This document shows, one piece after another, positions 5,501-53,082 of a DNA stretch of 64,000 nucleotides; position 1 is the stretch's first letter; the number at the start of each line of letters is the position of its first letter. The stretch comes from Parafrankia discariae (lineage in GTDB: Bacteria > Actinomycetota > Actinomycetes > Frankiales > Frankiaceae). The stretch covers positions 305,474 to 369,473 of the forward strand of contig NZ_KB891103.1 in the NCBI RefSeq assembly GCF_000373365.1, given 5' to 3'. Both the position numbers and the translations under genes were made by a program. The notes beneath the pieces were generated by a model. That model saw only the letters and a list, made by a program, of their open reading frames with translations. It made no database searches and was not told where the DNA came from.

Positions 5501-5912
5501 CGGCTGAGTGTTGCATCGCCTGTTTCCTGCTGAACGGCTGGCCGCCGTCCCGCGCTATCTCGACAGGTGGGGCCGAGGTGACCGCTGTTCGGAGTCTGTC
5601 TTTCGTTGCCATGAGCGAATCGGCGCGGCGCAGGGTCGGTGCCTGGTCATCCCTCGCCCGCACTCCATTCGATTCTTCCGCGCGTTCCCCGGTCAGCGCC
5701 TCCCCCACCGGGCGGTGAAGACCATGCAGGACGACCCGATGCGCCCCTGCCGCTCCGAGGCCGCCCGGGACCGCCGGGACCCGCCCGGAACCGCGGCCGA
5801 CTGTGGTCTCCCGGCCTCATGCCCGGAGCTGTCCGGCGGGCATGGTGGACGTCCGGCCGGTGGATCGAATCCATACACAACAGGGATGGGCAGGTTCACT
5901 GGCCATATCAAC
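5501..5912. other. intergenic stretch without recognised gene
   Basis: About 410 bases lie between the start of the TIR-STAND gene and the glycosylase remnant. Reading frames here have no recognisable domain and no good ribosome-binding site. It should contain the TIR-STAND promoter, but no -10/-35 pair stands out. Confidence 0.4.
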
Positions 5913-6078
5913 GCGACCTGCTTCAACAGCCGCCGCCCGTCCGCGGCGGTCGTCCACAGCCGTGCGGCGTCGCCGTCGTAACTGTCGACGATCCATCCCC
6001 GCCGGATCCGCCGGGTCCAACGAACGACCGAGCCACCGCGTCAGCTCCTGCGGCGCCGCGAACGCCCGCTCCAACGGA
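5913..6078 (-). pseudogene. 3'-part remnant of an HhH-GPD DNA glycosylase gene
   Basis: On the minus strand this segment matches the intact glycosylase gene at 8083-8658 from about its position 8303 to 8563, with roughly 95 internal bases missing. The deletion joins two GATCC motifs present in the intact gene (near 8384 and 8476), so it looks like loss between short direct repeats. There is no start codon and the frame is broken. The match stops at the gene position corresponding to codon 33, within 5 bases of the point where the dispersed 5'-end copies begin. The matched parts are about 90% identical by eye. Confidence 0.8.
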
Positions 6079-6171
6079 GTCCGCTCGTCCCGGCCAGTCT
6101 CGGAACGATGAAGCGGGGCCGTCCCAGGCGAGGGCCCACGTGTCGGGAGCGCGCACCTCGACACTATGTTA

Positions 6172-8082: not shown

Positions 8083-8658
8083 TCAGGCCGTTGCAGCCTT
8101 CACCGCCGCCTTCATCTGCTTCTTGTACTCGCGGACCTTGTCCCGGCTCGGCTGGTCGACGATGTCCGCCACCGAGAGGTAGCTGCCGGCCTCTCCGAAC
8201 GGGGCGGTGGCCTCCCGCCAGCCCGGGGCATCGACGCCGAGCTGCTTGCCGAGCAGCGCCACGAAGATCTTCGCCTTCTGCACCCCGAAGCCGGGCAGCG
8301 CCGCGACCTGCTTCAACAGCTGCCGCCCGTCCGCGGCGGTCGTCCACACGCCCGCGGCATCGCCGTCGTAGCTGTCGACGATGATCCGACAGAGCTTCTG
8401 CGTCCGCTGGGCCATCGCCGCCGGGAACCGGTGCAGCGCGGGCTGGATGGAGAAGACCGCGGCCAGCTCGTCCGGATCCATCCCCGCCAGATCCGCCGGG
8501 TCCAAAGAACGGCCGAGCCGCCGCGTCAGCTCCAGTGGCGCCGCGAACGCGCGCTCCAACGGAATCTGCTGGTCCAGCACCATCCCGATCAACAGCGCCA
8601 ACGGGTCGTTCGTCAACAGCTCGTCGGCCTCGTCGATCTGGCTCAGATGCAGTCCCAC
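8083..8658 (-). CDS. HhH-GPD family base-excision DNA glycosylase
   Basis: This 191-aa protein belongs to the actinobacterial HhH-GPD-type base-excision repair proteins. The N-terminal helices are 'HLSQIDEADELLTNDPLALL' and 'GMVLDQQIPLERAFAAP'; the helix-hairpin-helix is 'LLKQVAALPGFGVQKAKIF' near residues 125-145. No iron-sulphur cysteine cluster is present. It should excise damaged or mispaired bases, but the substrate is unknown. The GTG at 8658 is preferred because the dispersed copies of its 5' end conserve the frame from this codon; an in-frame ATG at 8679 would add seven residues. Its first 30-31 codons are repeated at least seven times to the right, making this the intact parent of an array. 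Confidence 0.85.
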   Translation of the reverse strand: MGLHLSQIDEADELLTNDPLALLIGMVLDQQIPLERAFAAPLELTRRLGRSLDPADLAGMDPDELAAVFSIQPALHRFPAAMAQRTQKLCRIIVDSYDGDAAGVWTTAADGRQLLKQVAALPGFGVQKAKIFVALLGKQLGVDAPGWREATAPFGEAGSYLSVADIVDQPSRDKVREYKKQMKAAVKAATA

Positions 8659-8799: not shown

Positions 8800-8834
8800 A
8801 AAAAAAGCCCCGCCAGTCCCGGAGGACGGCGGGG
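8800..8834 (-). terminator. intrinsic terminator downstream of lnt
   Basis: Read on the minus strand: a 7-bp GC stem (CCCCGCC/GGCGGGG arms at 8808-8814 and 8828-8834) with a 13-base loop, followed by seven T residues (8800-8806). It lies 137 bases past the lnt stop codon and would end leftward transcription from lnt before the glycosylase gene. Confidence 0.85.
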
Positions 8835-8970: not shown

Positions 8971-10548
8971 CTACTCCATCTTTCCGGAACCGACTGGTTC
9001 AGCACCCCGCGATGTGCGCGCGCCGGCCGGGTTCGCCCCCACCATGAGAGGGCGGGGTTCCGCTATGCGTCGACCTGCGCGTCGTATGCGTAGTGACGCC
9101 AGTCCGGCGGCGAACACGAGCAGGCAGGCCCAGGCGAACCAGTCACCGAATCTGGAGTACACGGTAGGAGCGGCTGGAGACGGCAGCCTGGTGACCACGG
9201 CCGCGATGGTCGCTGTGTCACTGCGTTTCTCGGCCAGCACCCGGCCGGTGGGATCGCTGACCGTCAGATCGCCTCTGCGTGCCGACCGTGCGATGGTGAC
9301 ACCGCTCTCGACACCCCCGGTGACAGCGATGCGGCTGTGAAGCCACCCATCGTTGCCAAAGTCCCACGCGGGCACGAAGACACCGGTCGCGCCGCGCTGG
9401 CGGTAGTCGCGGATCAGGCCAGGGAAGTCCATGTCCTTACAGACCGCGAGTGCCCATTCCCCGCCGGGGCCCGGTACGAGCATCGGCTGGTCGCCGGGAC
9501 TCAGGTCGCTTTCGGCGCCGGGGATCAGGTGACGCTTGTAGTAGACGGCGGGTGTTCCCTGGCCGGCTTGGAAGTCGATCGCGGCGTTGTAGGTCGTGCC
9601 GCCGCGGGTGAGTACCAGTCCGACGACCACGTCGATCTTCCGTTGCGAGGCGAGGCGGGCCAGGGGTTCCGAGAGCACGCGCAGGCTGCTGTCATCCGCG
9701 GCGAAGACCTTCTCCGGGATGACCACGACGCGAACCCCGCCCGTCGCCACGTCTCGGACGCGGGCAAGGTAGCGATCCAGCAGCTCGCGGCCCGCGGGCG
9801 TGACCAGGGAGACCGGGTCGTCGGGCCGGTCGGCGGCGAGCAGTGCCACCTTCGCCTCCTGTCGGCCAGGGGCGTGGGCCAGGTGCCAGCCGCCGTATCC
9901 AAGTGCCACAGCCAGCAAGGTCACGGCGACCGTGATGGCCTTCGCGCGACCCACCACGCCCGGCGCCAAGAGCACCGCCGCCGTGCTCGGGATCAGCAGG
10001 ACCAGGAAGGTGACGCCCCACGGCCCGGTGACGGACACCGTCTGCAACACCAGAAGCAGGTCAGCCTGGGTGTATGCCAGGCTCCACCAGGCGCCATGCG
10101 GCATCGCCAGCGACAGCAGGTACTCGAAGCCGGCCCACGTCACGGGCAGGAAGCACGCCGCGATCAGCGTTCGCCGTCGCACGAGCAGAGCATTGGTTCC
10201 CAGGACTGTGAGCCCGAACGCCAACGCCGTGCCGATGATGATGGACGTGCCCACCGCTGGTGGCATGTCCAGCGTCCCCAGAAAGTAGCCCCAGAGCTGG
10301 CTCTCCCCGCCGAGCCATGCGACGAACGCGAGGGCGAACGCCGCACGGGCGCTGAGACGAAGGGCCACCGCGAGCACCGGCAGGGGCGCAAGCCAGGTGA
10401 ACCAGGGGCACGGCTGTAGTCCGGTGCCCAGGCGGAACAGGAGCGACGACACCAGGACGGCCGCCACGGCCGCGACGGTCTGACGCGCCGCGATGGTCAC
10501 GGGCACCGGCACCGACGTTGCCGTTGGGGTTGGGGTTGGGGTTTTCAC
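8971..10548 (-). CDS. lnt: apolipoprotein N-acyltransferase-like membrane amidase
   Basis: This 525-aa protein has about seven membrane helices in residues 18-225 and then a nitrilase-fold domain with the expected Glu-Lys-Cys triad: Glu in 'VVVIPEKVFA', Lys in 'YYKRHLIPG' and Cys in 'ALAVCKDMDF'. A final helix 'WFAWACLLVFAAGL' precedes a basic tail. Lnt moves an acyl chain to the N-terminal Cys of lipoproteins; the standard enzyme has the same layout, but this one may be a paralogue because the gene sits in an accessory region. The start is GTG at 10548 with GGGAG nine bases upstream. The N-terminus is a TPTPTPT run, and the last residues come from repeat DNA. Confidence 0.8.
   Translation of the reverse strand: MKTPTPTPTATSVPVPVTIAARQTVAAVAAVLVSSLLFRLGTGLQPCPWFTWLAPLPVLAVALRLSARAAFALAFVAWLGGESQLWGYFLGTLDMPPAVGTSIIIGTALAFGLTVLGTNALLVRRRTLIAACFLPVTWAGFEYLLSLAMPHGAWWSLAYTQADLLLVLQTVSVTGPWGVTFLVLLIPSTAAVLLAPGVVGRAKAITVAVTLLAVALGYGGWHLAHAPGRQEAKVALLAADRPDDPVSLVTPAGRELLDRYLARVRDVATGGVRVVVIPEKVFAADDSSLRVLSEPLARLASQRKIDVVVGLVLTRGGTTYNAAIDFQAGQGTPAVYYKRHLIPGAESDLSPGDQPMLVPGPGGEWALAVCKDMDFPGLIRDYRQRGATGVFVPAWDFGNDGWLHSRIAVTGGVESGVTIARSARRGDLTVSDPTGRVLAEKRSDTATIAAVVTRLPSPAAPTVYSRFGDWFAWACLLVFAAGLASLRIRRAGRRIAEPRPLMVGANPAGARTSRGAEPVGSGKME
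8975..9007 (-). repeat. short remnant of the glycosylase 5'-end repeat inside the lnt 3' end
   Basis: About 33 bases match the flank-plus-boundary part of the other copies (compare 13294-13325): CCATCTTTCCGGAACC followed by CTGGTTCAGCACC. The match stops there. The last codons and the stop codon of lnt are read from this remnant. Confidence 0.55.
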
Positions 10549-13283: not shown

Positions 13284-13417
13284 TCCTTCCCGCTCCATCC
13301 CTCCGGAACCCGCTGGTCCAGCACCATCCCGATCAGCAGCGCCAGCGGGTCGTTCGTCAGCAGCTCGTCCGCCTCGTCGATCTGGCTCAGATGCAGTCCC
13401 ACGCCGTCACCATAACC
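13284..13417 (-). repeat. glycosylase 5'-end copy 1 (nearest)
   Basis: The coding part 13313-13417 matches the intact gene with about 9 differences by hand count. Over codons 1-30 all four differences are synonymous, so it still encodes the same 30 residues from the GTG start. Left of 13313 it carries the flank TCCGGAACCCGCTGG shared with other copies. No coding sequence continues past codon 31. Confidence 0.88.
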
Positions 13418-14567: not shown

Positions 14568-14639
14568 CGAACCCTTGTCACGCCACCTTGGCCGTCATGC
14601 CAGCGCAGGACGCGGCCGCCTCGTCGGCCAAGCTCGGGG

Positions 14640-14767
14640 ATCACTCCACGGTTCCGACATCCGCTGGTCCAGCACCATGCCGATCAGCAACGCCAACGGG
14701 TCGTTGGTCAGCAGTTCGTCCGCCTCGTCGATCTGGCTCAGGTGCAGTCCCACACCTTCACCGTAGC
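14640..14767 (-). repeat. glycosylase 5'-end copy 2
   Basis: The match to the intact gene spans 14664-14767, with about 11 differences by hand count. Over the first 30 codons all differences are synonymous, so the same 30 residues are encoded. The left flank is weaker (GTTCCGACATCCGCTGG). It lies between the HxlR start and the GNAT stop. Confidence 0.88.
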
Positions 14768-15407: not shown

Positions 15408-15893
15408 TCAGATCGGTTCGACGACGATGTCAGCGCGGTCGAGGGTGGCGGTGTAGGCGGCTATGTCGTCCGGGTCGCTGGTGAGGATCTGGGCCGGGCC
15501 GTGAAGAGCAGCCGCTATGACGACCAGGGCGTCGATGACGTCCGGTCGCTTCTTCGTGGGAAGCCTGGCCTCGGCGAGCATGGCCCCCGCCCGTTTATAT
15601 GAGTCGAGGGTGAAGGTTCTCGCGCAGGCAACGCAGCCGGCGGGGAGACTCGACACGCCGCGCACAGGTGGCGTGCTCTCCCGAGTCTGGGGCACGGTGC
15701 AGTCCTTCAGGTACTGACTGAAGGCATGAACCGTCTCCGGGTCTGGTCGCCACGCCTGGGCGAGGACCGGGCCGATGACGACCGGCCGGTGCGGAGCCGC
15801 GCGTAGGCCGTGGTGGAGCAGCCGCGCCGAGGAGCTGTCTCGCAGGAGCGCCACCAGCATCCCGGCGTCATAGACGACAGTACGCGCGATCAT
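15408..15893 (-). CDS. PIN-domain toxin (VapC-like ribonuclease)
   Basis: The 161-aa protein has the spaced acidic residues of a PIN nuclease: Asp9 in 'VVYDAGMLVALL', Asp pair in 'KKRPDVIDALVVIAA' and Asp in 'ILTSDPDDIAAY'. Such proteins cut RNA. Its start overlaps the stop of the upstream antitoxin gene by four bases (15890-15893), the usual antitoxin-first order. The central insert with Cys residues ('LPAGCVACARTF') is unusual for VapC. No Mg-binding residue is obviously missing. Confidence 0.82.
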   Translation of the reverse strand: MIARTVVYDAGMLVALLRDSSSARLLHHGLRAAPHRPVVIGPVLAQAWRPDPETVHAFSQYLKDCTVPQTRESTPPVRGVSSLPAGCVACARTFTLDSYKRAGAMLAEARLPTKKRPDVIDALVVIAAALHGPAQILTSDPDDIAAYTATLDRADIVVEPI

Positions 15894-16201
15894 GCGACGC
15901 TTGCGGTGTCCGATCCAAGCGCGCTGTTCAGGACCCGGCGGACGAGCGCCTGCTCGTCCGCCGCCAAGGCGTCGAACGAAGGCAGGTCCGCCTCGGAGAC
16001 GTCGACAGTCTGCTCAAGGGCTGCCTGGTTGCGCGCGTCAAGGGCCGCGAAGGTCGCCGTGGCGGCATCGTCGCGCGCCATCTGCGCGACGGCCGCCGCG
16101 ACCATGTAGGCGGACACATCCATACCTGCCGCCTCGGCATGCATCCTGATCGCGGCCTGGACGTCCGAGGCCGTCGAGATCGTGAACCGAATGTTTGGCA
16201 T
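15890..16201 (-). CDS. antitoxin partner of the PIN toxin
   Basis: The 103-aa protein begins 'MPNIRFTISTASDVQAAIRM' and 'AAGMDVSAYMVAAAVAQMAR', a ribbon-helix-helix layout, then a helical and acidic C-terminus that would bind the toxin. The ATG at 16201 is chosen over an upstream GTG-type extension because it opens directly on the DNA-binding ribbon. An inverted repeat at 16209-16229 just upstream is a likely self-regulated operator. Confidence 0.8.
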   Translation of the reverse strand: MPNIRFTISTASDVQAAIRMHAEAAGMDVSAYMVAAAVAQMARDDAATATFAALDARNQAALEQTVDVSEADLPSFDALAADEQALVRRVLNSALGSDTASVA

Positions 16202-16229: not shown

Positions 16230-16309
16230 CGTCGTGACCACCATGCCACGGGCCGCGTTCCGCCGACGACCCGACCGAAGCAGGCCGTCGATACTGGGCT
16301 CCGCCTACC

Positions 16310-16440
16310 GATCGTTCCTTGTTTGTCCGACTTGCCGGTCCAGCACCATCCCGATCAGCAACGCCAACGGGTCGTTGGTCAGCAGTTCGTTTGCCTCGTC
16401 GATCCGGCTCAGGGGCAGTCCCACCTTTTCACCGTAGCCG
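16310..16440 (-). repeat. glycosylase 5'-end copy 3
   Basis: The match spans 16335-16440 with about 14 differences. The 30-codon frame is still open, but four residues have changed (H4P, Q7R, D12N and Q30R in gene numbering), so decay at the protein level has begun. It lies upstream of the antitoxin gene. Confidence 0.85.
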
Positions 16441-18994: not shown

Positions 18995-19042
18995 ACGGCA
19001 GCTCGTCCGCCTCGTCGATCTGGCTCAGGCGCAGTCCCACCT
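18995..19042 (-). repeat. glycosylase 5'-end copy 4 (truncated)
   Basis: Only about 45 bases match: the start codon and codons to about 14 (H4R, then a break). The codon 15-31 part and flank are missing, having been replaced by the 3' end of the TetR gene. Confidence 0.75.
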
Positions 19043-19223
19043 CCACGCTCCGGGCACCAGCAGCCGCTGCCAACGGCTGGTTGATCAAAACTGCGCAGTG
19101 ATCAGCAACACCCGGGCCTCCACGACCCGATACGACAGGAACGTGACGTCGGAATCTCGCCAGACTTCCGCTGCCACAGCCGCCACAGTTGAGGGGAACC
19201 ATATAGACGGGAGTTCGGGAAGA

Positions 19224-24607: not shown

Positions 24608-24702
24608 CGTTCGTTCTCTCCGGCACCCGCCGGTCCAGGACACCCGCCGGTCCAGCGCCATCCCGACCAGTGGGGCCGACGGGTCGTCGGTCAGCTCGTC
24701 CG
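24608..24702 (-). repeat. glycosylase 5'-end copy 5 (degenerate)
   Basis: The flank GTTCGTTCTCTCCGGCACCC is well kept, followed by a doubled CACCCGCCGGTCCAG and about 55 bases of the codon 12-31 region at roughly 80% identity with one codon lost. The start-codon end is missing. The XRE gene's stop codon lies two bases past the repeat. Confidence 0.7.
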
Positions 24703-27479: not shown

Positions 27480-28532
27480 TCAGGGCGAGGCCGCTCCGTC
27501 CGGGGCATCCGAGGCGTCCGGGGCGTCGCCCCCGAGCTTCGCCCGCATCCCGGCGAGCATGTGGGCCTGGACGCGCAGCAGCAGCTCGGCCCCCTGCTCC
27601 AGGTCATCGTGGGGGACGTCGGCGAACACCGTCCGGAGGAGGTCGCGGCGCGCCGCGCGCACCTTCTCGACCGTCGCGCGCCCCTTCGGGGTGATGGCGA
27701 TCAGGCTTGCGCGACGATCTCCCTCGACGGGAATCGCCTCGACGAGCCGGTTCCCGCGGAGCTGACGCAGCTGAAGCGAGGCGGTGGAGACGTCGATGCG
27801 CAGGCACTGCGCGATGTCGGAGATCCGCAGGGGCTCCACCAGGTCGAAGAACTCCAGCAACCGCAGCTCGCTCGGCGCCGCGTCACACCCCGAACGCCGG
27901 GCGATCTCCGCGCGGATGTGCCTGCTCTCGCTCCACCGCACCACCGCCGCGACGCCGGCCTCCAGCCGCTCCAGCGGTGCCCGAGTGGTCGCGGGCGGGA
28001 GCGGCGGCGGGAGCGGTGGCGGGACCGCGTCCGGGTCGGGCAGGGGCGGCACGAGGACCGTCCGGTGGCGTGCCATCAGTTCCTGCGTCAGAGCCCGGCC
28101 GGGCATGGCTCCAGTTCTCGCCACGTGCTCCGCTACCTCGGCGAAGTAGTCCTCGTAACCGCTGGGCGTGAGGGTGGCGACGTAGCGGGCCTGCTCGTCG
28201 AAGGGATTCCCGAAGCCGTGTGCCAGCCGCCGGCCGGCGAACACCGTCTCACCGGCGACAGCGGTGTGGAACCCGTCTCCGACGCGGAACCGCAGCCGCC
28301 CCTCGACCAGCACGAACGTCTCGTCGTGGCCCTCGTGAACGTGCGGGAGCGGTCCGGGCTGCCGCGGGCCCATCCGGCCCTCCAGCACGGTGAGCCGGCC
28401 GAGGGTGTCACCCGCCGTGACCTTGACGAGCATCGACCAGTCCGGCAGGTCGATACGACGGCCCTCGTCACGACTCCGGGCGAAACCCCGGGCCGGTTGC
28501 TCTCCGCCCGGAGCCTGGACGCCGAATGTCAC
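27480..28532 (-). CDS. cupin-MarR fusion regulator
   Basis: The 350-aa protein joins two domains. Residues about 35-130 form a cupin: 'GPLPHVHEGHDETFVLVEGR' with the two metal-site His and Glu, and 'AGETVFAGRRLAHGFGNPFD' with the second-motif His. A Pro-rich linker (PPPLPPPLPP) at about 175 leads to a MarR winged helix: 'LRISDIAQCLRIDVSTASLQ', 'LRQLRGNRLVEAIPVEGDRR' and 'ITPKGRATVEKVRAARRDLL'. A cupin sensor fused to MarR is uncommon; it suggests a ligand- or metal-sensing repressor. The start is GTG 28532. The palindrome at 27438 and downstream SDR are likely targets. Confidence 0.85.
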   Translation of the reverse strand: MTFGVQAPGGEQPARGFARSRDEGRRIDLPDWSMLVKVTAGDTLGRLTVLEGRMGPRQPGPLPHVHEGHDETFVLVEGRLRFRVGDGFHTAVAGETVFAGRRLAHGFGNPFDEQARYVATLTPSGYEDYFAEVAEHVARTGAMPGRALTQELMARHRTVLVPPLPDPDAVPPPLPPPLPPATTRAPLERLEAGVAAVVRWSESRHIRAEIARRSGCDAAPSELRLLEFFDLVEPLRISDIAQCLRIDVSTASLQLRQLRGNRLVEAIPVEGDRRASLIAITPKGRATVEKVRAARRDLLRTVFADVPHDDLEQGAELLLRVQAHMLAGMRAKLGGDAPDASDAPDGAASP

Positions 28533-28566
28533 GTGTTCCCCACCTCAGGAGTGAGCCGGCGGCACC

Positions 28567-28693
28567 ACGTTCGTTCCGGCCGAACCTCGCTGGTCCAGCA
28601 CCATTCCGATCAGCGGTGCCGACGGGCCGTTCGTCAGCGGCTCGGCCGCCTCGTCGATCTGGCTCAGGTGCCGGCTTGTGGAGTCACAGTAGC
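28567..28693 (-). repeat. glycosylase 5'-end copy 6
   Basis: The matching part is 28590-28693, with about 24 differences in 109 positions. The start codon is lost and many residues are changed (for example A-A-E-P-L for A-D-E-L-L). The flank GTTCGTTCCGGCCGAACC is kept. It lies 58 bases upstream of the cupin-MarR start. Confidence 0.82.
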
Positions 28694-36969: not shown

Positions 36970-37082
36970 TCATGCCGCACACCTGTGAGGAAGCGGTCCA
37001 GGCTCCCGCCGGCCCATCCGCCCTTCCAACACGGTGAGCATTCCGAGGGTGTCGCCGGCAGTGACCTCGACCAGCATCGACC
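36970..37082 (-). pseudogene. cupin fragment, remnant of a second cupin-MarR gene
   Basis: On the minus strand it encodes 'SMLVEVTAGDTLGMLTVLEG' and 'RMGRREPGPLPH', aligning with residues 33-66 of the cupin-MarR protein at 27480-28532. It then stops at a TGA at 36970. A glycosylase 5'-end copy lies next to it in the same order and orientation as at 28.5 kb. Confidence 0.85.
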
Positions 37083-37146
37083 GTTTCGGCCGCCGGAGAG
37101 TGCCGGCGAGCCATGACCGTCATGATCAGAGATCGTTGTCGGCGCC

Positions 37147-37273
37147 GCGTTCGTTCTTTCCGATACCAGCTGGTCCAGAACCATACCGACAAGGAGCACA
37201 TGCGAGTCGTTGGTCGACGACTCCTCGGCCTCGGCAATCCGGCTCAGATGAAGTCCCACGTCATCACCGTAGC
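37147..37273 (-). repeat. glycosylase 5'-end copy 7 (farthest)
   Basis: The matching part is 37170-37273, with about 24 differences in 109. The frame is open and starts with GTG but many residues have changed (for example S-R-I-A-E-A-E-E-S-S). The flank GTTCGTTCTTTCCGATACC is kept. Confidence 0.82.
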
Positions 37274-41247: not shown

Positions 41248-41311
41248 GCGGACCAGTCTTCAGCTCCGGGGAAGACGGGACCACAGCACGCTCATACTGG
41301 TACGGGCATTA

Positions 41312-41425
41312 CCAGGCTGGTTATGGTCCAGGCTGGTTACGGTCCAGGCTGGTGATGACCAGGCTGGTGATGACCAGGCTGGTGATGACCAGGCTGGTGA
41401 TGACCAGGCTGGTGATGACTAGGCT
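41312..41425. repeat. iteron-like tandem array, 15-16 bp units
   Basis: Two 16-bp units (41312-41343) and five perfect 15-bp units CCAGGCTGGTGATGA (41344-41418), then a partial unit that runs into a TAGGCT -10-like box. Each joint makes CTGGTGATGACCAG, an inverted repeat with 5-bp arms. The array fills the space just upstream of the XRE gene. Confidence 0.9.
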
Positions 41426-41433
41426 GGCAGGGC

Positions 41434-51752: not shown

Positions 51753-52646
51753 ATGCCGACGCCCGACCGGACCATCCTCGTCACCGGAGCCACCGGTCAG
51801 CAGGGCGGGGCCACCGCGCGGCGTCTCCTGGCCGACGGCTGGCGGGTGCGGGCGCTGGTCCGCGACCCCGCCGGGCCGGCGGCGCGGCGGCTCGCCCTCG
51901 ACGGCGCCGAACTGGTGACCGGTGACCTGGACGACCGGGACGCGCTGGCCGCCGCCACCGAGGGCGTGTACGGGGTGTTCAGTGTCCAGCCGGCGAGCCA
52001 TGCCCCCCATTTCGACGAGGGGGAGGAAAGGTACGGCGTCAACCTCGCCGACGCGGCCAGTGAAGCCGGGGTCCGGCATCTCGTCCACACCTCCGCGGCC
52101 GGTACCGATCGGGACCCGGACGGCCCCGCGGCCTCGAAGGCACGGATCGAGCTCCACATCCGGGAGCTCGGCCTTCCCGCCACCGTGCTACGACCTGTCA
52201 TGTTCATGGAGAACCACACCGACCCGGTCTTCGGCGTCACCGGCCAGGCCTCGCTGGTCCGGATGATCCCGGCGGGGGTGACGGTCCAGCTCATCGCCGT
52301 CACCGACGTCGGAGCGTTCGCCGCGCTCGCCTTCGCGGACCCGGCCCACTATGTGGGTGCGGAGTTGGAGCTGGCCGGCGACGAGGTGACCCGCGAACAC
52401 CTGATCACCGCGATCAGCCGCGCGACCGGGCGCGACCTTCAGCTGGACCCGCTCCCCCGGGAGACTCTCGTCCAGCTCGGGGTCGACGTCGACGGCCTCG
52501 AGCGGGAGAGGTCCTTCAACGGCTGGCAGGCCGACGTTCCCGCGCTGCGGCGGCTGCACCCGGGGCTGATGGACTTCGAGACCTGGCTGGCGCGGGAGGG
52601 CGTGGCCCGGTTCGCCGCGCTGTTCGCCGAACCGGCGAGCCCCTGA
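51753..52646 (+). CDS. NmrA-like NAD(P)-binding protein (atypical SDR)
   Basis: The 297-aa protein has 'TILVTGATGQQGGATARRLL' (GxxGxxG NADP loop), 'VRALVRDPAG' (Arg for NADP) and 'GVRHLVHTSAAGTDRDPDGP'. It lacks the YxxxK of classical SDRs, as in NmrA/HSCARG redox sensors. It should sense or bind NADP(H) rather than reduce. The TetR protein encoded at 51038 is its likely repressor through the paired operators. Confidence 0.88.
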   Translation: MPTPDRTILVTGATGQQGGATARRLLADGWRVRALVRDPAGPAARRLALDGAELVTGDLDDRDALAAATEGVYGVFSVQPASHAPHFDEGEERYGVNLADAASEAGVRHLVHTSAAGTDRDPDGPAASKARIELHIRELGLPATVLRPVMFMENHTDPVFGVTGQASLVRMIPAGVTVQLIAVTDVGAFAALAFADPAHYVGAELELAGDEVTREHLITAISRATGRDLQLDPLPRETLVQLGVDVDGLERERSFNGWQADVPALRRLHPGLMDFETWLAREGVARFAALFAEPASP

Positions 52647-52689
52647 CACGCCCGGTGCCCGGGGCGTACCCGCGTCCGCCGCTCCGATC

Positions 52690-53082
52690 TCAGCCAGCGC
52701 CGGTACGCGCCTGAAGCTCCGCCGATCCGTCCTGGGCGTCCTGTAGTTCCTCGCCGTGCTCGGTGATCCAGTTTCCGAGCGCCTCCATCGGACCGTCCAC
52801 CAGGCTCTGCCCGAGTGGGGTCAGCGCGTATTCGACCCGCGGCGGGGCCTGCGCGAACGCACGGCGGGCCACCAGACCGTAGGCGCCGAGCCGGCGTAGC
52901 GATTCGGTGAGGACCTTGTCGCTCATACCGCCGATCGCGACGCGCAGCTCGCGGCGCCGACACGGCCCCGCACGAAGAGCCATCAGCACGACCGGGTCCC
53001 AGATGTGGATGAACAGGTCGGTCACCGCCCGGATACGGCAGTCCGCCACCAGCTCCTCGCAGTGACGTCCCTGGTCGCTCAT
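52690..53082 (-). CDS. HxlR family transcriptional regulator
   Basis: The 130-aa protein has 'CEELVADCRIRAVTDLFIHI', 'LRAGPCRRRELRVAIGGMSD', 'KVLTESLRRLGAYGLVARRA' and 'VEYALTPLGQSLVDGPMEAL', the HxlR wing and helices. ATG 53082 is used; ATG 53091 would add three residues. It is divergent from an F420-type reductase gene at 53213, a rearranged version of the co-linear HxlR-reductase pair at 13.5-14.6 kb. Confidence 0.88.
   Translation of the reverse strand: MSDQGRHCEELVADCRIRAVTDLFIHIWDPVVLMALRAGPCRRRELRVAIGGMSDKVLTESLRRLGAYGLVARRAFAQAPPRVEYALTPLGQSLVDGPMEALGNWITEHGEELQDAQDGSAELQARTGAG

Follow-up and report, generated by a model that had tools for sequence, protein, structure and literature searches.

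A cupin-MarR gene and its broken twin in Parafrankia discariae most likely terminate two mobile segments that were acquired separately

The window, by which we mean the whole 64,000-nt stretch of DNA analysed here, carries an intact cupin-MarR gene and, some 8 kb away, a broken twin, each standing beside a copy of a short repeat. The gene and its twin most likely mark where two mobile segments end, each of which was acquired separately. The repeat is the 5′ end of a DNA-glycosylase gene (TIGR03252), and we consider it probable that the segments entered by serial site-specific insertion at codon 31 of this gene, through the action of recombinases of the large serine type. An earlier note on this DNA had taken the paired arrangement as a sign that related segments were inserted repeatedly; this is borne out, as segments recur at codon 31 of the repair gene. 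A single mechanism would account for the duplicated cupin as well as for the repeats and the fragments of the gene.

The glycosylase gene and its scars

Each repeat consists of the −10 box of the promoter and codons 1-31 of the HhH-GPD DNA-glycosylase gene, and the view that it is a free-standing element was therefore rejected. The better copies, all on the minus strand, encode the N-terminus VGLHLSQIDEADELLTNDPLALLIGMVLDQ and end there. Well-kept copies (5′ scars) stop at one common codon and run on into a conserved non-gene arm, and the 3′ remnants start at that same codon, behind an inverted arm. In a DNA search of the 7.9-Mb genome, seven of seven matches to the repeat fell inside the window; a decayed copy (24618-24702) and a scarless arm (8982-9002) were added by pattern and local search.

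The sole intact copy of the gene (8083..8658, minus strand) contains the attachment site, codon 31, at 8569-8571. Its product matches PF00730 and scores 290.7 bits against TIGR03252 over residues 4-190, the cut-off being 136.5. The gene begins with GTG, and the −10 box TACGGT lies immediately 5′ of it; the start is read here as leaderless. The start region is conserved from −16 onward in most genomes, the exception being G020, which has no scars.

The scars and arms of the window are likewise on the minus strand. The 3′ remnant (5912..6090) starts at the DQ codons (30/31), has an internal deletion and is preceded by an inverted class I arm (the right end, P; 6090..6118) with six mismatches to the consensus; the shuffled control of the inverted-arm search gave no matches. 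The arm at 8982..9002 is of class I and retains the last bases of the gene core, the remainder of its 5′ scar being lost. A 5′ scar comprising codons 2-31 (13313..13402) is followed by a class I arm (13285..13312), a second (14664..14753) by a class I-type arm (14636..14663), and a third (16335..16424) by a class II arm (16307..16334). A short decayed 5′ scar (18999..19043) and a decayed 5′ scar with arm (24618..24702) lie between these and the two scars that adjoin the cupin sequences, namely copy 6 (28590..28679), with a diverged arm at 28562..28589 (39% mismatch), and copy 7 (37170..37259), with the arm of the older cupin segment at 37142..37169. Compared with the reference copy over 122 nt, copy 6 (28570-28691) shows 78% identity and copy 7 (37150-37271) 75%. 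The class II arm is found again together with the next two genes (window 15408-16201) in G008 and G016, so that segments circulate as units; parts of the same segment occur in G014 (arm), G031 (genes) and G007.

The cupin-MarR gene and its broken twin

The intact cupin-MarR gene (27480..28532, minus strand; PF07883 and PF12802) forms a segment end immediately to the left of copy 6. The earlier note had reported a cupin remnant in the same place and orientation beside copy 7, and this holds, both being on the minus strand; the homologous block lies at 36985..37090, and not at 36970-37082 as then given. It is identical to the intact gene at 87 of 106 nt, and 29 of its 35 encoded residues (83%) agree with residues 30-64 of the cupin-MarR protein. 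The alignment score is 117, the maximum over 300 shuffles being 42, which bears out the proposed relationship. Codons 1-29 and everything past residue 64 are unrecognisable, and the piece is therefore a pseudogene. When the two junctions are aligned, as had been suggested, the similarity is continuous through the repeat, the non-gene arm, the spacer and the start of the cupin.

Two origins had been left open for this arrangement, namely that two segments ended with the same gene or that one segment was duplicated and decayed. The second, in which one segment was duplicated in tandem within the genome and the outer copy then decayed, would explain why order, strand and spacing are alike and why scar, arm and cupin are all doubled. 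The relationships to other genomes speak for the first. A junction consisting of 5′ scar, arm, GAACGAAC and cupin is present twice in G000 and also in G023 and G024, and G026 possesses a decayed one in which 15 scar codons stand beside a cupin piece. Within the shared 106-nt block, the cupin of copy 6 agrees with that of G003 at 100 positions, G024 at 97, G023 at 92 and copy 7 at only 87, whereas the cupin of copy 7 is equidistant (87-89) from those of the other genomes. A 33-nt spacer is common to copy 7 and G024 and is missing in copy 6 and G023. Since three foreign cupins resemble copy 6 more closely than copy 7 does, and copy 7 shares its spacer with G024, we favour two acquisitions over local duplication, which is also at odds with the differing remaining cargo of the two segments and which we regard as improbable. 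The comparison covers the 106-nt block only, copy 7 being a pseudogene, and within it acquisition of the cupin segment on two occasions fits better. The cupin-MarR gene would then be the left-end cargo of one segment family.

Dating the divergence by the glycosylase copies, as had also been proposed, is not valid, because under the insertion model the scar fragment and the cupin stem from different parents of the junction. The order of scars does follow their identity to the intact gene in the window (rho −0.97, five copies), but the relation breaks down family-wide (mean rho −0.23, permutation P 0.10), and scar order was rejected as a clock.

Distribution of the gene and its scars

Matches to the repeat were obtained in all six genomes of the genus and in 33 of the 35 genomes of the family; G028 has the intact gene alone. 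A query of 49 N-terminal residues found a match in 194 of 296 genomes of a class-level sample. Outside the family 168 genomes match, and more than one match is seen in only two of these (G192 and G292). Extra copies are family-specific and occur almost nowhere else in the class.

Stretches were taken in sets of 10, 40 and a further 19. The assembled regions contain 28 intact genes, one per region, and 81 distinct 5′ scars. Among partial matches starting in the first 20 residues, 65/86 end at residues 30-34; of the other partial matches, 10/23 start at residue 30. The 5′ halves are mostly found upstream of the intact gene and the 3′ halves downstream of it, and the two kinds share the codon at which they are cut. 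Two features of this distribution count against the model of insertion. In G001, G014, G023 and G029 a few 5′ scars are found on the downstream side of the intact gene. The imbalance between 5′ scars (81) and 3′ scars (about 10) is large, so that a process by which 3′ scars are lost is required.

In the one-contig genome G006 a lone scar with a class II arm (G006:C1:5045829-5045919; L116) is located about 4.4 Mb from the intact gene, and reflects either a far insertion or a rearrangement.

Arms and attachment sites

The non-gene sequence that follows the 5′ scars belongs to two main arm classes, one CRGGTATCGGAAGGATGGAGTGGGA-like and the other CAAATCGGACAAACAAGGAACGA-like. At ≤35% mismatch 68 of the 81 5′ scars are followed by an arm; among intact genes the figure is none of 28, and among 4000 random positions 0.18%. 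The motifs were derived from the same data on which they were counted, with the intact genes and random positions serving as controls. The arm of copy 6 is among the 13 beyond this cut. The arm scan gave 71 forward and 12 inverted arms, with none in shuffled sequence, and an inverted arm within the threshold of the scan is present at 8 of 10 3′-scar junctions. Across the 35 genomes, 18-19-nt arm patterns were found in 20 and 27 places, mostly at the codon-31 locus; the control gave none.

It has to be considered whether a single ancient insertion took place, after which the scar-plus-arm junction spread as a repeat by homologous recombination. The two arm classes are indeed distantly alike, sharing a TCGGA core, and with a length of about 95-120 nt the scars could recombine. 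Such spreading sits poorly with the existence of two arm classes of constant length, with inverted arms on the 3′ side, with different cargo directly behind each arm and with recombinase genes beside scars, and we judge it very improbable.

Three joints with the structure inverted arm-core-arm were found (G007, G012 and G024). They are palindromic at 18, 19 and 14 of 25 pairs, the random 99th percentile being 16, which is surpassed by two of the three. The attB site itself, over 50 nt, pairs at 8-12 of 25 positions against a random mean of 11.3. This lack of excess counts against the model, and a symmetric attB is unsupported over that length.

Proposed mechanism of insertion

We propose that a segment circularises, bringing its ends together in a symmetrical attP (arm-core-arm), and that the recombinase joins this attP to the GACCAG core of the gene, which would serve as attB within codons 30-31. 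The products would be the 5′ half followed by an arm (attL) and an arm followed by the 3′ half (attR). Each region keeps one intact gene, which requires that a replacement arrive with the segment, and most segments would carry a complete one beside the right arm. The cell would thereby retain the glycosylase and gain a fresh attB, with nesting in the manner of Russian dolls. Homologous recombination with the intact copy would subsequently remove most 3′ scars, and the segments of the window, having lost the recombinase, would be relics or elements that can be mobilised in trans.

An alternative is that the segments carry only the 5′ half of the gene (the −10 box and 31 codons) as an attP arm, somewhat like SXT at prfC. 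Every insertion would then swap the 5′ end and leave the old one in place, and rare mirror-image segments would carry the 3′ half. This would directly yield the excess of 5′ over 3′ scars, about 8:1, and a circulating 5′ end would be expected to be more uniform than the remaining protein, as is found: codons 2-31 stand at 95.6% within the family versus 74.7% for the rest, and at 65.5% versus 58.6% outside it. Against it, the inverted arms before 3′ scars and the arm-core-arm joints demand a symmetrical attP, and in G011 and G008 a right arm is found 60-115 nt from the end of the intact gene. Likewise, the 3′ part moves between genera: for this part a single clade was rejected for genus g1 (p-AU 5e-70), the values for other genera being 2e-4 (g2), 7e-6 (g7) and 0.02 (g6). 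We therefore regard carriage of the 5′ half alone as possible though rather doubtful. In G024 no more than 46 gene codons stand between the recombinase and the right arm, an incomplete copy that counts against the carriage of complete genes. It remains most likely that the elements bring with them a substitute for the gene that they break and so re-found the site.

Whether this extends to the whole family, such that serine-recombinase elements everywhere bring an intact copy of the broken gene, build an archive of cassettes and spread the gene between genera, we consider evenly balanced. If it does, each insertion kills the resident glycosylase gene, and the target is re-founded by the arriving copy, which has a −10 box of its own and a leaderless start; defence, toxin-antitoxin and metabolic cassettes would accumulate round one repair gene in an archive that is open-ended like that of an integron. 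The target gene would travel with the elements attacking it, which bears on the persistence of insertion hotspots in useful genes, and the arrays themselves form a catalogue of small mobile cassettes, toxin-antitoxin and nuclease-like genes included. The model offers a defined, testable set of attB, attP and recombinase. Few genetic tools exist for this host group.

Candidate recombinase

Genes or remnants of one large-serine-recombinase cluster are found near scars, and 4/6 of them end 48-67 nt before the scar start codon. Three of these are in G008 (62, 48 and 62 nt) and one, a remnant, in G024 (67 nt); further remnants in G014 and G031 are about 1.6 and 3.3 kb from scars. PF00239 and PF07508, the domains sought, are present in both G008 proteins scanned, and the zinc ribbon PF13408 in one of the two. 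Phage serine integrases are relatives of the G008 recombinase, one from a Streptomyces phage being 31.6% identical to it over 94%. In the 501-aa protein a serine occupies the aligned place (context AVLS versus ARIS), in a region that aligns poorly, and a second G008 copy has no N-terminus. With the Ccr family NF047343 the score is 18.3 bits against a cut-off of 900, and no Ccr match exceeded its cut-off. A PDB sequence search with the recombinase gave no match.

Several observations count against this candidate or limit its reach. Remnants aside, recombinase genes stand at scars in G008 alone, other family matches to this recombinase being on other contigs or distant from scars. No recombinase was found within the window, and the genome to which it belongs has no G008-type recombinase at the locus and only two weak matches genome-wide (E 2e-7 and 6.5e-5). 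The serine recombinases of the genus are located away from the codon-31 locus.

Tyrosine integrases were sought with an HMM built from G000's own integrases, and none was found at codon-31 sites in 52 stretches (1.22 Mb). The HMM gave one clear match, in G001 at the 3′ end of the gene, and two weak ones (E 4e-4 and 1.2e-3). A tyrosine integrase was rejected as the agent, the sole clear match belonging to a separate 3′-end site of an AICE-like module. At L038-L047 (G001, G002, G004 and G005) the last ~40 nt of the gene are repeated downstream of the intact gene, and in G001 the integrase adjoins the 3′ end. The 3′ end is thus a putative second, independent attachment site.

Cargo and other features

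In several genomes (G017, G024 and G011) a Phd/PIN toxin-antitoxin pair lies between the intact gene and a right arm, at L124:5301-5929 and in further regions. Recurring cargo at L124:14601-16415 and L125:7048-8316 includes a Schlafen AlbA_2/HATPase protein and an AAA_14-DUF4143 ATPase, each in five regions; both are possible defence genes.

A 27-nt hairpin with a T-run (window 8808-8834) is near-invariant across genera and was found in 20 places in relatives. It has a TTGACG...TAGCGT-like promoter in front and often an NYN-domain gene (PF01936) directly behind, and resembles a short, terminated leader RNA belonging to a mobile cassette with a nuclease gene. The NYN gene has been lost from the window copy. 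No Rfam family was detected in the window or in the stretches of two relatives.

The window also contains a tandem array (41311-41427) of 7.7 copies of a 15-nt unit with 91% matches, and a tRNA-like gene (52609-52703) predicted by ARAGORN with an incomplete anticodon, which is probably spurious.

Comparison with known systems

A literature search for HhH-GPD together with Frankia islands or with serine integrase gave no match, and the term "HhH" does not occur in an excerpt of PMC3218068. SCC/ECC elements, as an excerpt of PMC6222049 describes them, encode their own large serine recombinase, enter the chromosome at a single gene and have dyad-symmetric att sites. With these (CcrAB at rlmH) the codon-31 array would share the type of recombinase, the single entry gene and perhaps the dyad symmetry of the att sites. 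It differs in its target, which lies inside an unrelated gene and not, as in SCC, at the 3′ end of rlmH; the gene so entered is destroyed and would be replaced, and the recombinase falls outside the Ccr families. SCC composite islands and pseudo-SCC elements also exist.

The SXT/R391 elements are conjugative elements of ~100 kb with a tyrosine integrase. According to an excerpt of PMC2786100, they insert into the 5′ portion of prfC, a housekeeping gene, and form tandem arrays. In both these respects, as the excerpt gives them, the codon-31 array is similar; unlike them, it has no tyrosine integrase at the site, the enzyme by which SXT/R391, AICEs and integrons are recognised, and its sites are spaced 0.5-24 kb apart.

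CIMEs and accretion islands are att-bounded segments without a recombinase of their own, stacked at one site. The segments of the window, bounded by scar and arm, arranged in tandem and free of recombinase genes, correspond to this description, except that the codon-31 site would be regenerated by a new gene copy or 5′ half and not by duplication of a short 3′ end. Integron cassette arrays are chains of small cargo ending in recombination scars and contain toxin-antitoxin genes. The codon-31 array likewise strings together small units of cargo, has a recombination scar at the end of each and includes toxin-antitoxin genes, but there is no tyrosine integrase at the site and the scars are gene halves. 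By analogy, the array would work like a cassette chromosome or accretion island, with a different target and a different recombinase.
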